Origin: Ignavibacterium sp.
GTDB lineage: Bacteria; Bacteroidota; Ignavibacteria; Ignavibacteriales; Ignavibacteriaceae
NCBI GenBank assembly: GCA_032027145.1
Contig: JAVSMP010000001.1
Coordinates: 1,268,903 to 1,332,902, forward strand
Length of the DNA: 64,000 bases
Direction of reading: 5' to 3'
The position numbers were made by a program, and so were the translations under genes. Every line of letters starts with the position of its first letter. The first letter of the stretch is position 1. This document shows, piece by piece, positions 50,975 to 56,646 of this stretch. A model generated the notes under the pieces. That model searched no databases and was not told the DNA's origin. It saw only the letters and a list, made by a program, of their open reading frames with translations.

Positions 50975-52363
50975 ATGGTAAGTGAAACAGAAAATAAGCA
51001 GGGAATTATAAATCTGATATCTTCCGGAGAATCTGAAAAATTAACTGATCTGCTCTACAGTCTTTCTTATAATGATGTTGATGAGGAAATAATCAAAAGT
51101 ATTGTCCCTTTAATACTTCAGGGAAATAAATCCGTTAGAAATGCAGCATCAAACTTTTTAATTCAAAACCGTAATCAGGTAATTCCTGAATTGGTTATAG
51201 AACATATTAGCTCCGACAATATTTCAATCAGAAATCTTGCAGGGGAGATACTCCTTAAAAAAGGTTCAGATTCAATTCCGGCAATAAGTTCTTATATCCC
51301 AAATCTGAATAATGATGACGATATAAAGTTTCTTGTAGATATTCTTGGACTGATTGGGGATAGGAGGACTGAAGATTTAATTACACAAATTCTATGCAGC
51401 AATAAAAATGAAAATGTAATTGTTGCCTGTATAGAAGCATTAGGGAATATTGGAAGCGAAAAAGCTGTAAAACATATAATACCTTTTTATGACCAATTAG
51501 AAGTACTTAAACCAGTTGTAGTAGAGGCAATTGGCAAAATAGAAACATCAGAATCCTTGAAGTTTATTGTTGGAAAATTTAATTGTGAAGACGAACTGCT
51601 TCAATTTACTATGATTGAAAGCCTTGGACAAATAGGTGATCAGGATACCTTTTATTTCCTCCTATCTAAGATTAATGAGCTTAAGGGAGCTTTAATATGG
51701 CCATTATTAGAATCCATTTATAAACTAAAAACAAGATATGATCTTGAAGTTCCCTTTGATGAAAAGATTAAAAAATGTGTGCTTGATACAATAGTTAGTT
51801 CTGAACCGAAATATCAAATAGCTGCGGCTCATCTGGTAAGTGTTTTTGATGATCCTGAAATTCTCTTTGCTTGTTTGTCTATTTATGGAATGGATATGGA
51901 GCTGGATGAATTACTTTATAGAAAATTTATGGAGAATAAAGAAATAATTATTTCGAAACTGTATAATGCAATTGACAATTCCAATGAATATGTCGCATCA
52001 ATTCTTGAACTCCTAAATAATATCGCTCAGGATGATTCTGCTGTAATCCAGGGGTTAACCACACTCGATAAAAGAAGATTAACTGAAGCACTTTCAAATT
52101 GTCTGACAAATCCAGATGAAGTTGTAAGGATTATAGCTGCCGAATTATTATTTGCTGTAGATACAGAGACGGCATTGCTATTTGTTGATACAATGACAGT
52201 AGATGAGAATTTTTGGAATCGAATCAGAATTCTGGATGTTCTTTCTGAAATTGATCATCCTCAGATAACAGAGTCAATTGAAAAACTTGTTAATGATCCC
52301 GAAGAGATGGTAAGAGAAAAAGCAAGAGAAATTTTACTTCGAAAACAATTTTTTATCAATTAA
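50975..52363 (+). CDS. HEAT-repeat protein at the head of the chemotaxis operon
   Basis: A 462-residue protein built of HEAT-like helical repeats (NKSVRNAASNFLIQNRNQVI, SIRNLAGEILLKKGSDSIP, DEVVRIIAAELLFAVD, EEMVREKAREILL). No signal peptide or membrane helix, so cytoplasmic. HEAT proteins are scaffolds; the first place in an operon with cheR, cheY, cheZ, cheA and cheB suggests a role in array assembly, receptor control or methylation. I do not know a named family for it. The start follows the sigma-54-like promoter by 39 nt. Confidence 0.8.
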   Translation: MVSETENKQGIINLISSGESEKLTDLLYSLSYNDVDEEIIKSIVPLILQGNKSVRNAASNFLIQNRNQVIPELVIEHISSDNISIRNLAGEILLKKGSDSIPAISSYIPNLNNDDDIKFLVDILGLIGDRRTEDLITQILCSNKNENVIVACIEALGNIGSEKAVKHIIPFYDQLEVLKPVVVEAIGKIETSESLKFIVGKFNCEDELLQFTMIESLGQIGDQDTFYFLLSKINELKGALIWPLLESIYKLKTRYDLEVPFDEKIKKCVLDTIVSSEPKYQIAAAHLVSVFDDPEILFACLSIYGMDMELDELLYRKFMENKEIIISKLYNAIDNSNEYVASILELLNNIAQDDSAVIQGLTTLDKRRLTEALSNCLTNPDEVVRIIAAELLFAVDTETALLFVDTMTVDENFWNRIRILDVLSEIDHPQITESIEKLVNDPEEMVREKAREILLRKQFFIN

Positions 52364-53282: not shown

Positions 53283-53648
53283 ATGAAGAAAGTAGTTCTT
53301 GTTGCAGATGATTCACCTACAATAAGAAAATTTGTTTCAATCTCTTTAAAAGTTAAAGGTTTTGAAATAATACAGGTAGCTGATGGAATGCAGGCTTTGG
53401 AAATATTACCATCTGAACCGGTTGATCTTATTATAACAGATCTGAATATGCCAAATGTTGATGGATTTGAATTGATTAAAACAATCAGATCAAATAAAGA
53501 GTACAGCGAATTGCCGATAATTATCCTTTCATCACTATCCACTAATGAAGAAATTGAAAGGGGAATGCAATGCGGTGCAAATGCATATTTACTCAAACCT
53601 TTTGATTCCAAAAGGGTTTTATATGAAGTTTCTAAATTTTTAAACTAG
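53283..53648 (+). CDS. Single-domain response regulator
   Basis: A 121-residue receiver domain. VADDSPTIRKFVS carries the acidic pocket, the phosphoacceptor Asp lies in DLIITDLNMPNVDG, Thr/Ser in IIILSSLST and Lys in YLLKPFD. It has no output domain. It lies between cheR and the more typical cheY; it may be a phosphate sink or a second CheY. Confidence 0.9.
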   Translation: MKKVVLVADDSPTIRKFVSISLKVKGFEIIQVADGMQALEILPSEPVDLIITDLNMPNVDGFELIKTIRSNKEYSELPIIILSSLSTNEEIERGMQCGANAYLLKPFDSKRVLYEVSKFLN

Positions 53649-53657
53649 AGGAAAATT

Positions 53658-54047
53658 ATGGCACTAAAATTTTTAATTGTTGATGATTCGCAGACAATGC
53701 GCAGAATCGTGGTAAACTCATTGAAAAATCTCGGCTATGAAGATTTTGTTGAAGCTTCCGATGGTAAGGATGCGTTACTTAAACTTTCTGCTGATGAAAC
53801 GATAAACTTTGTGATAACTGATTGGAATATGCCGGTGCTTTCTGGTCTTGAATTAATTAAAGCAATACGGTCAGATGCCAAAATGGGTAATACACCTGTT
53901 TTGATGGTTACAACACGCGGAGTTAAAGATGATATAATCGAGGCTCTTAAAGCAAAGGTAAATAATTATGTGGTAAAACCGTTTACACCAGCTATTCTTC
54001 GTGATAAAATTGATCAGATATTAGCAGCTACAGGAGGAGGTAATTAA
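53658..54047 (+). CDS. cheY: Chemotaxis response regulator CheY
   Basis: A 129-residue receiver with the wording typical of CheY: FLIVDDSQTMRRIVVNSLK, the Asp in FVITDWNMPVLSGLELI, Thr in LMVTTRG and Lys in YVVKPFTP. TDWNMP is the CheY form and separates it from the REC protein just before. Phospho-CheY binds FliM/FliN at the motor switch. cheZ follows without a gap. Confidence 0.93.
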   Translation: MALKFLIVDDSQTMRRIVVNSLKNLGYEDFVEASDGKDALLKLSADETINFVITDWNMPVLSGLELIKAIRSDAKMGNTPVLMVTTRGVKDDIIEALKAKVNNYVVKPFTPAILRDKIDQILAATGGGN

Positions 54048-54797
54048 ATGATGAGTGAAGAAAATATGACACAGCTTTTTGAAAAACTTAATGATCTTAA
54101 AAAAGTTTTTTCTTATGGAGAAAAACTTATACCTGTTATCCATAGTCTTGGCGAATTTATGAAGGAGACAGTTCCTTTACTTGAGAACATTAATCAATCA
54201 ATAGCAGAAAGCACAGCTAAGATTCCGAAAGCAACTAATCAGATTCAAAGTGTAACAAGCGCTACAGAAATGGCTACCACAGAGATTTTAGATCTTGTTG
54301 ATGTGCTGAATAATGATTTGATTGATATAGAAAAAACAATGCTTGATGTTTTAGTCAAGGAAAAAGATAAAGAAGACTTTTTAACAAGCCTTGTTCCTAT
54401 GCTTAATAAAGAAAATGCTGAATTGTTTATTGATGATTTTCTATCAAAAAACAGCAGTGCTGAAAAACTTGGCGAGTTGCTTTTGCAAGTCGGCAAAATG
54501 AAAAATGATTCCAATAATATTGCAGTCTCTTTACAGGTGCAGGATATTACGGCTCAGCAATTAGCAACAGTAAATCATTTAATCGAATCGGTTCAGGAAA
54601 AATTGTCTGCATTGATAGAAGATTTTGACAATACAAAAATTCTGGATAATCACGAGATAAATTTACCTGATAATGCATCATTCGATCCGAATGCAAGGTA
54701 TTCAAAATCTTCGGTACCACAGCAGGAAGTGGATTCAATTTTTAATAAAAACTCACAAAAAGCGTCTCAAGCAGAAATAGATAAACTTTTTAGTTAG
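54048..54797 (+). CDS. cheZ: CheY phosphatase CheZ with two FliM-like C-terminal peptides
   Basis: A 249-residue long-helix protein. Residues 160-175 contain LQVQDITAQQLATV, matching the CheZ active site (D166 and Q170 in the D-x-x-x-Q spacing that positions Mg2+ and water at CheY-P). The C terminus ends in two similar peptides, QQEVDSIF (225-232) and SQAEIDKLFS (240-249). They resemble the CheY-binding C-terminal peptide of E. coli CheZ and the FliM N-terminal SQAEIDALL motif. Two copies are unusual. ATG at 54048 and 54051 both follow a strong GGAGGAGG site. Confidence 0.85.
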   Translation: MMSEENMTQLFEKLNDLKKVFSYGEKLIPVIHSLGEFMKETVPLLENINQSIAESTAKIPKATNQIQSVTSATEMATTEILDLVDVLNNDLIDIEKTMLDVLVKEKDKEDFLTSLVPMLNKENAELFIDDFLSKNSSAEKLGELLLQVGKMKNDSNNIAVSLQVQDITAQQLATVNHLIESVQEKLSALIEDFDNTKILDNHEINLPDNASFDPNARYSKSSVPQQEVDSIFNKNSQKASQAEIDKLFS

Positions 54798-54798
54798 T

Positions 54799-56646
54799 AT
54801 GGCAAAAATAAATCAAAACCCAATGCTCATCGATCCGGATATGAAGGAAATCGTTGAGAGTTTTATAGTTGAAACAAAAGAAATTCTGGAAAAGCTGGAT
54901 GTTGATCTTGTTGAAATGGAAAGAAGACCTGACGATAATGAATTACTTAACAGCGTCTTCAGACATTTTCATACTATCAAAGGCACTTCTAGTTTTCTGG
55001 GATTAGATAAGCTTACCGGAGTAACTCATAAAGGTGAGGATATCCTTAATAAGCTGAGAAAAGGCGAAGTGATTTTAACTTCAGGCATTATGGACGCTTT
55101 GCTGAATGCTTTTGATAAAATGAAATCATTACTTTATAGTATTGAAGAATTTCAGAATGAAGATGTTGATGTTAAAAACACAATTAAAGAATTAACCAAT
55201 TTAATTTCAGCTCTTGAAAATGGCGAGACAATAACCGAATCAAAAAAGACTGTTAAAAAATCAAAGAAAACGAATAGTAAATCTGAATCAGCTAAAACAA
55301 AAAAGAACAAGAATGAAAGTATTAAGCAGGTAGAATCAGAAGACGAAACAGCATTACTTCAAGTAGCTGAAGAAGAAAAAGAACCAGAACAAGAGCTTAC
55401 CAAAACTGAACTAAAAAGTTCAGATGAAAATAAATTAAAACCAGAAACTGCTAAGAAAGTAGAAAATTCAATTCGTGTTGATGTAGAAAGACTTGATGAG
55501 CTTTTAAATATTGTTTCAGAATTAGTACTTGGCAGAAACAGACTGGCTCAGGTAAACTCCGAATTTGCACTTGAAAATGAAGGTACAAGATTTTCGCGGG
55601 ATCTGTTTGATGTAACCAAACAGATTGATCTGATGACTAATGAATTACAGCTTGTAGTAATGAAAACAAGAATGATCAAAATCGGGAAAGTGTTTAATAA
55701 GTTTCCCCGACTGGTCAGAGATTTGTCAAGAGAAGCAAATAAGCAGATAAACATTGTTATTAAAGGTGAAGAAACTGAATTAGATAAAACTCTCATAGAA
55801 GAAATTAATGATCCTCTGGTTCATCTTGTAAGAAACAGTGTTGACCATGGTATTGAAACTCCTGAAAAAAGAAAAGAATTGGGTAAAGATCCTGCAGGAA
55901 CATTGACACTTTCAGCAGAACACGAAGGAAATAATATCATCATTACAATTGAAGATGATGGAAAAGGAATTGATCCTGAGGTAATTAAAAATAAGGCTGT
56001 TTCCAAAGGTTTAATTTCGGTTGAAAAAGCAAGAGAACTATCTAAACAAGAAATTCTTAATTTGATTTTTTTCCCTGGTTTTTCTACTGCTGAAGTTGTA
56101 ACTAATATTTCCGGACGAGGCGTAGGCATGGATGTAGTAAAAACAAATGTTACAAAATTGCGCGGGATAATTAATATTGATTCTACTACCGGTGCTGGAA
56201 CAAAAATTATTGTCAAACTGCCTTTAACACTCGCTATTATTCCCGGAATGATTGTCAAAGTCAGAAATCAGTCTATAGTAATTCCCTTGAATACAGTGTT
56301 AGAAGTATTGCGCGTTCATCGTGAAAATATTCATTCAATTAATCAGAGACCTGTAATTAAAATGCGGGATAGTGTACTGCCGCTGGTTTCTGTTGAAAAG
56401 ATTTTGTTTGGGAATGAAGAAAAAGACGACAATAAAATCTGGCAGTATGTTGTGGTAGTCGGAATAGCTGAAAAGAGATATGGAATTGAGGTTGACGGTT
56501 TGGTAGGACAGAAGGAAGTTGTTATTAAATCCTTAGGCAACTACTTTGGTAAAATACAGGGTATTGCCGGCTCAACTATTATGGGTGATGGCTCTGTTGT
56601 GATGATTGTTGATATAAACGAATTACTGAATATCGCCGAAGTATAG
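54799..56646 (+). CDS. cheA: Chemotaxis histidine kinase CheA
   Basis: A 615-residue kinase. P1 (HPt) carries FRHFHTIKGTSSFLG with the phosphoacceptor His58. A Lys/Glu/Ser-rich linker (about 150-215) stands where a P2 domain would be, so no CheY-binding P2 is apparent. P3 dimerisation helices follow (VDVERLDELLNIVSELVLGR), then HATPase (HLVRNSVDHGIE, EDDGKGID, GRGVGMDVV) and the CheW-like P5 (VVVVGIAEKRYGIEVDGLVG). It phosphorylates CheY and CheB. It sits one base after the cheZ stop codon. Confidence 0.96.
   Translation: MAKINQNPMLIDPDMKEIVESFIVETKEILEKLDVDLVEMERRPDDNELLNSVFRHFHTIKGTSSFLGLDKLTGVTHKGEDILNKLRKGEVILTSGIMDALLNAFDKMKSLLYSIEEFQNEDVDVKNTIKELTNLISALENGETITESKKTVKKSKKTNSKSESAKTKKNKNESIKQVESEDETALLQVAEEEKEPEQELTKTELKSSDENKLKPETAKKVENSIRVDVERLDELLNIVSELVLGRNRLAQVNSEFALENEGTRFSRDLFDVTKQIDLMTNELQLVVMKTRMIKIGKVFNKFPRLVRDLSREANKQINIVIKGEETELDKTLIEEINDPLVHLVRNSVDHGIETPEKRKELGKDPAGTLTLSAEHEGNNIIITIEDDGKGIDPEVIKNKAVSKGLISVEKARELSKQEILNLIFFPGFSTAEVVTNISGRGVGMDVVKTNVTKLRGIINIDSTTGAGTKIIVKLPLTLAIIPGMIVKVRNQSIVIPLNTVLEVLRVHRENIHSINQRPVIKMRDSVLPLVSVEKILFGNEEKDDNKIWQYVVVVGIAEKRYGIEVDGLVGQKEVVIKSLGNYFGKIQGIAGSTIMGDGSVVMIVDINELLNIAEV

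Follow-up and report, generated by a model that had tools for sequence, protein, structure and literature searches.

What would a chemotaxis phosphatase do with two CheY-binding-like peptides in its tail? The usual picture of E. coli CheZ has one active site and one tail peptide that grips CheY. A FliM-like peptide in the CheZ tail is already known and, as an earlier note on this DNA had stated, E. coli K-12 CheZ does end in a related peptide (C-terminus ASQDQVDDLLDSLGF). Our question was raised by a 64,000-nucleotide stretch of an Ignavibacterium sp. genome (hereafter the window; the genome is a single 3.67-Mb contig), in which the same note had placed two such peptides within 54695–54797. 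Both are present, QQEVDSIF (block 1) and SQAEIDKLF (block 2), at the end of an open reading frame whose C-terminus reads ...SVPQQEVDSIFNKNSQKASQAEIDKLFS.

Gene context

The cheZ-like gene lies in a chemotaxis operon ordered HEAT-repeat protein, CheR, REC, CheY, CheZ-like, CheA and CheB (Table 1), of which HEAT, REC, CheY, CheZ and CheA were named through Pfam and CheR and CheB by eye from the sequence. The cheY stop codon abuts the cheZ ATG with no gap. The AGGAGG found within the final CheY codons (54030–54050), immediately 5' of the TAA ATG junction, suggests translational coupling. REC, CheY and CheZ are encoded in one common reading frame. Upstream of cheR, a HEAT-repeat protein occupies 50975–52363, and a HEAT-like protein stands at the equivalent place in locus L151. 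The window CheA has a Lys/Glu-rich linker between its Hpt and dimerisation domains.

Table 1 Features of the chemotaxis locus in the window.
Feature	Position	Strand	Description
second single-domain REC protein	53283..53648	+	Pfam Response_reg 101 bits; Glu at K119 position
cheY	53658..54047	+	presumed ligand of blocks 1 and 2; Y106, K109, K119 equivalents present
cheZ-like gene	54048..54797	+	ORF, 249 aa: predicted long helical hairpin and flexible C-terminal tail
CheZ phosphatase active-site motif D166-I-T-A-Q170 (DxxxQ)	54543..54557	+	D166, Q170 invariant (92 A2 rows)
CheZ element F212-D-P-N-A-R-Y218	54681..54701	+	directly ahead of block 1
block 1, QQEVDSIF	54720..54743	+	CheZ residues 225–232; CheZ-type, presumed CheY-binding
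block 2, SQAEIDKLF	54765..54791	+	CheZ residues 240–248; FliM-type, presumed CheY-binding
cheA	54799..56646	+	Hpt, H-kinase_dim, HATPase_c, CheW domains over Pfam cut-off

Assignment to CheZ

We take the window protein as a divergent CheZ. The Pfam CheZ profile (PF04344) matches it at 24.3 bits (E 3.3e-5), below the curated cut-off of 30.7 bits, and annotation pipelines may therefore miss it. We read that cut-off as a naming threshold and base the assignment on other grounds. The same profile matches 92/92 members of a family alignment (A2, below) at E ≤ 0.001, the best at 6.6e-15. In a profile–profile comparison, 71 sequences from the class matched 14 proteobacterial CheZ with a probability of 92.5% (E 5e-7) at 16% identity, a divergence that accounts for the missed Pfam cut-off; window QDITAQ stands opposite E. 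coli QDLTGQ, and the DxxxQ motif is present. The NCBIfam equivalog NF008368 gave 13.2 bits (E 0.056) against a cut-off of 257, far too low to support the protein as an equivalog of that CheZ.

The AlphaFold model of CheZ consists of long helices (mean pLDDT 78.7). Solved CheZ structures were absent among the listed Foldseek/VIA matches to this model, and a sequence search of solved structures with CheZ returned two weak matches, neither of them CheZ. The structural matches that were listed (chemoreceptors, SMC arms, PI3K coiled coils) scored at levels common for helical bundles, and we set them aside.

For comparison with relatives, 391 genomes of the class were sampled, 156 of which have a CheZ homologue; 126 CheZ proteins were read, two each from G199 and G336. 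The MAFFT alignment A2 (92 rows, long-tailed CheZ left out) comprises the first 110 CheZ minus 17 of more than 290 aa (L096 included) and minus L102, with the window row in place of L008, and is also without the 16 CheZ read later.

Two peptides of different classes

The tail is laid out as QQEVDSIF-NKNSQKA-SQAEIDKLF-S, block 2 beginning seven residues past block 1. When the last 50 residues of CheZ were shuffled 200,000 times, a match to Q.[DE][IV]D.[LI]F appeared once in five of the shuffles and twice in none, whereas the real tail holds two. In both blocks the Q, hydrophobic, D and hydrophobic positions (225/228/229/231 in block 1, 241/244/245/247 in block 2) are spaced like Q8, I11, D12 and L14 of FliM, and AlphaFold predicts one helix spanning block 1 (223–235) and another within block 2 (241–247). 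The earlier note had described a double copy. Two motif matches do stand in the tail, but block 1 and block 2 are peptides of different classes.

Block 1 was located in 126/126 class CheZ, 50–83 residues past the active site, though this count is partly by construction, since the search pattern required Q...[DN] and five were placed by hand; its Asp position holds Glu in two of the 126 and Asn in two. A2 is the fairer measure of conservation because the patterns had already required most of the letters being counted, and in A2 both Q225 and A216 are invariant (92/92 rows) and D229 is kept in at least 90%. At the level of the order, the block 1 Q and D are each found in 58/58 CheZ, and the F[DN]xxAxY element keeps its F in 49/58, A in 54/58 and Y in 50/58. 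In the profile alignment, block 1 stands opposite SQDQVDDLL, the C-terminal peptide of E. coli CheZ, in a part of the alignment that is among the least reliable because it lies at the end of the chain. The Pfam CheZ match of the window protein extends as far as residue 231, which is position 197 in a profile of 203. Alignment and match end together are suggestive of a CheZ-type peptide. PMC9659070 cites a structure of the complex between CheY and the C-terminal peptide of CheZ.

None of the 126 class CheZ has a block 1 that fits the strict pattern [ST]Q.[DE][IV]D.[LIM][FL], and 16, the window protein among them, fit the looser Q.[DE][IV]D.[LIM][FLI]; the window protein thus has a block 1 closer to FliM than is usual in the class. 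At the position of the FliM Ile, Ala or Val is the commonest residue in block 1, which may therefore bind weakly.

Block 2 fits the FliM-type core SQx[DE]IDx[LM][FL]. It was found in 57 of 58 order-level CheZ, with Q, D and L in 57/57, I and F each in 56/57 and E in 53/57, and the linker sites ahead of it mostly have entropies of 2.4–3.4 bits. The tails past block 1 in the 126 class CheZ contain 138 matches to [DEN][IV][DN].[LIM][FLI]; 1000 shuffles of the same tails gave a mean of 0.39 matches and a maximum of 3. Poor conservation in relatives had been named in the earlier note as a result that would refute its reading, and that is not what we see: both peptides are conserved in A2 and in the order-level CheZ.

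The likeness of block 2 to FliM, also claimed from the letters alone, is borne out within this genome, whose sole FliM match begins MSEVLSQSEIDALLK and contains LSQSEIDALL. The FliM N-terminal motif (SQAEIDALL) shares with block 2 the SQxEIDxL core at identical spacing. Block 2 differs in being C-terminal rather than N-terminal, in its place on a phosphatase, in its tandem occurrence and in its final residue, which is Phe in 135/138 copies and Leu in the 30 FliM N-termini examined (mostly best-scoring loci, an uneven sample). A comparable arrangement is described in PMC12826062 for Bacillus subtilis FliY, which likewise hydrolyses CheY-P and carries an EIDAL element of the FliM type. FliY, however, is a C-ring protein of the CheC type, whereas the window phosphatase is a CheZ with a second peptide class in variable copy number.

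A pattern search for the FliM-type motif in the DNA of 20 chosen genomes gave 34 matches, 29 of them at cheZ loci, and the reversed pattern used as a control gave 3; in these genomes the motif thus appears nearly confined to CheZ. The 29 include a second CheZ (G098:C74) and one match in G198 that follows a run of N. Of the remaining five, three are in the window genome, where two were inspected and neither was placed in a gene. G339 has another in a subtilase-like protein, and the last is in G282, within a short ORF.

Copy number of the FliM-type peptide among relatives

E. coli and Salmonella CheZ resemble the window protein in their DxxxQ active site and in a C-terminal Q-x-x-V-D-D-L-L peptide that aligns with block 1. 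E. coli CheZ stops after that single peptide, whereas the window CheZ adds a FliM-type peptide and its relatives carry up to five. Past block 1, the 126 class CheZ contain no FliM-type motif in 20 cases, one in 87, two in 8, three in 9 and four in 2, so that the motif is repeated in 19/126. Absence from 20 CheZ indicates that block 2 is dispensable; these 20 include L047, where a match runs past the stop codon, and L060, which has a degenerate SQNNTDRLL. In L096 a run of N in the CheZ tail makes the copy count a lower bound. The four repeats of the L168 CheZ share 43–55 identical bases of 51–57 in pairwise comparison, and L090 has three FDIDAMF units and SQDDIDALF.

Matches were also found in 48 of 296 genomes sampled across the phylum, 13 of them outside the class. 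Among the five CheZ of family f34, L303 and L304 have five units, L305 three and one off-pattern, and L307 two; the array of L306 is interrupted by a run of N joining the next gene, and its count is a lower bound. L309 has four motifs and L310, L316, L317 and L318 two each. Families f40 and f63 (three genomes) have a CheZ-like protein with a single terminal motif, in which block 1 was not seen. The CheZ-like proteins L319, L320 and L321 have an active-site stretch QFHDIVTQ or QFHDIVSQ and one terminal SQADIDALF-type motif, with no block 1 seen. A second CheZ-like gene occurs in G336, G098, G013 and G033 (L168, L323, L308, L327), the one in G336 with four tandem repeats.

A quick tree built from the cores of 136 CheZ gave, as parsimony minima, at least eight changes between one or fewer and two or more copies and at least four between none and some. 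The CheZ of other classes and of G104 (L273) stand outside the 126, and L322 and L323, from the class, were counted only in the 136-core tree. The number of CheY grips on CheZ thus looks like a setting of the chemotaxis circuit that is itself evolving.

The CheY surface and the second REC protein

The window CheY is 54% identical to E. coli CheY over 125 columns. A table in PMC3774744 gives the E. coli FliM–CheY contacts as Q8–V108, D12–K119 and I11/L14–I95/A99/Y106, and the same source has CheZ and FliM occupying one CheY face. The contacting FliM positions are those conserved in both blocks, and the CheY surface matches at the main contacts: Y106, K109 and K119 are kept in 126/126 CheY records of the class, drawn from 124 distinct loci, and the K92 position has Lys in 124/126. 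Other FliM-contact positions are changed, A99 being Leu or Met in 125/126 and A90 Gly in 122/126, while K91 varies; the K122 position holds Gln in 75/126 and Ala in 33/126. In the second REC, Glu occupies the K119 position in 119/119 records (117 distinct loci). CheY of other classes has Lys there in 16/16, and single-domain second REC proteins have Glu in 9/9 (one locus repeated in each). Two loci are duplicates, L151 of L115 and L161 of L090; they are counted in the 126 CheY and 119 REC records and outside the 126 CheZ; in L056 and L168, CheY is absent from the fetched stretch. On balance, both peptides would fit CheY better than the second REC, and both probably serve CheY.

CheA P2 can bind the same CheY face in other bacteria. 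Conservation of the face could also be due to CheY ligands of this sort; no P2 (CheY-binding) domain is among the Pfam matches to E 1 of the window CheA, the one CheA that the P2 search covered. The overlap of the CheZ-, CheA- and FliM-binding surfaces of CheY is stated in a title cited in PMC3774744.

At the position of E. coli E89, class CheY records have Arg in 126/126; the title of PDB entry 1mih assigns E. coli CheY E89 a role in CheZ-mediated dephosphorylation. Orthologues of the second REC have Leu at the E89 site in 116/119 and Lys at the 122 site in 117/119.

We also considered an AlphaFold prediction as evidence of binding and rejected it. The model of a CheY–CheZ read-through chain, run with alignment A1 (32 rows), is helical yet has no sign of docking; its mean pLDDT is 67.9, and the tail blocks score 52–57, against 58–67 for CheZ alone.

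FliM-type motifs in nine genomes with no FliM or FliG matches

The nine genomes of family f25 that have a CheZ carry three FliM-type motifs in 9/9 CheZ, while matches to FliM (0/9), FliG_C (0/9) and FlhF over cut-off (0/9) were absent from these genomes. Their CheY retain K92, Y106, K109 and K119 in 9/9. At L151, which is without FliM and FliG matches, the gene order read by eye is CheW-HEAT-CheR-REC-CheY-CheZ-CheA-CheB, which from HEAT onward is the order of the window. Since the motif is kept where no FliM or FliG match was found, something besides the flagellar switch maintains it, and CheY is the likeliest partner.

Alternative explanations

The earlier note had proposed that the two peptides might bind the two different REC proteins encoded upstream. 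Block 1 would then take CheY and block 2 the second REC, and CheZ would act on two response regulators. Both genes do lie directly upstream of cheZ, and of the 128 fetched records 126 have a same-strand CheY and 119 the second REC. The split between Lys in CheY and Glu in the second REC at the K119 position nonetheless disfavours this division of labour, as the conserved Asp in each peptide would be repelled by this Glu. The second REC also still adjoins 18/20 CheZ without block 2, and it is absent from the fetched stretch at L059, L077, L089, L100 and L169, which have FliM-type motifs; we regard one peptide per REC protein as very unlikely. It is less far-fetched, if still unlikely, that only block 2 and its copies bind CheY and that block 1 is a structural element for capping or dimer contact. 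Block 1 is conserved as part of a longer unit that includes F[DN]xxAxY, lies 50–83 residues past the active site, and is looser in its letters than block 2. It nevertheless shares the FliM spacing, aligns with the E. coli peptide for which PMC9659070 cites a CheY complex, and is the sole such peptide seen in 20/126 CheZ.

Two further possibilities concern the FliM-type motif itself. As a FliM mimic, block 2 might mainly sequester CheY-P from the motor and have no catalytic role, and in its Ser-Gln-x-acid-Ile-Asp part it is indeed closer to FliM than the E. coli CheZ tail is. The arrays persist, however, in f25 genomes that have no FliM or FliG match, and the copies end in Phe where the sampled FliM N-termini have Leu, and we consider a sequestering role improbable. 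FlhG also reads EIDAL motifs, and the FliM-type motif might recruit CheZ to such a partner, for example at the flagellar pole, in place of CheY; the window genome has FlhF over cut-off, and an FlhF/FlhG system is likely. Yet the nine f25 genomes combine three motifs with no FlhF over cut-off, and G013, G301 and G053 have FlhF over cut-off with no FliM-type motif in the CheZ read, which leaves little probability for recruitment by FlhG.

A proposed tethering phosphatase of variable valence

Our best explanation, which we consider probable, is that the window protein dephosphorylates CheY-P as a CheZ-type enzyme and binds CheY through two helices, unlike in kind, in its flexible tail. Block 1 would be the ancestral CheZ C-terminal peptide and block 2 a FliM-type addition, docking on the same CheY face (alpha4-beta5-alpha5). 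In the hairpin core, D166/Q170 would remove the phosphate, and the tail would tether CheY-P near this active site, with two CheY per chain and four per dimer possible. Such a tether may raise the local concentration of CheY-P and let CheZ compete with FliM, and lineages may set its strength through gain and loss of FliM-type copies. The raised affinity for CheY-P that the earlier note had expected of two peptides is plausible. What the sequences show is the tail elements, their conservation and changing copy number, a CheY surface that matches at the main contacts, and persistence of the motif where no FliM match was found; binding to CheY, simultaneous occupancy of the two peptides, their stoichiometry and their effect on dephosphorylation we infer.

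Among the top open-licence literature matches listed, none described a CheZ whose tail has CheY-binding peptides in tandem or in several copies, and relative to these the two-class CheZ tail and the arrays of 0 to 5 copies are new here. We raise more tentatively the possibility that CheZ in this Bacteroidota branch is a variable-valence trap for CheY-P, in which duplications of the 9-residue FliM-type peptide tune chemotaxis gain, cooperativity or CheY-P buffering independently of the flagellum. If true, 0 to 5 copies would stand beside one CheZ-type peptide, giving about 12 sites per dimer at most. If the number of grips does evolve, these proteins would form a natural series of CheZ with 0, 1, 2, 3, 4 and 5 FliM-type peptides, suited to testing how the gain and speed of a two-component switch depend on valence. 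The proteins of f25 further suggest that FliM-type peptides need not be flagellar, which calls for caution in annotating motor-binding motifs.
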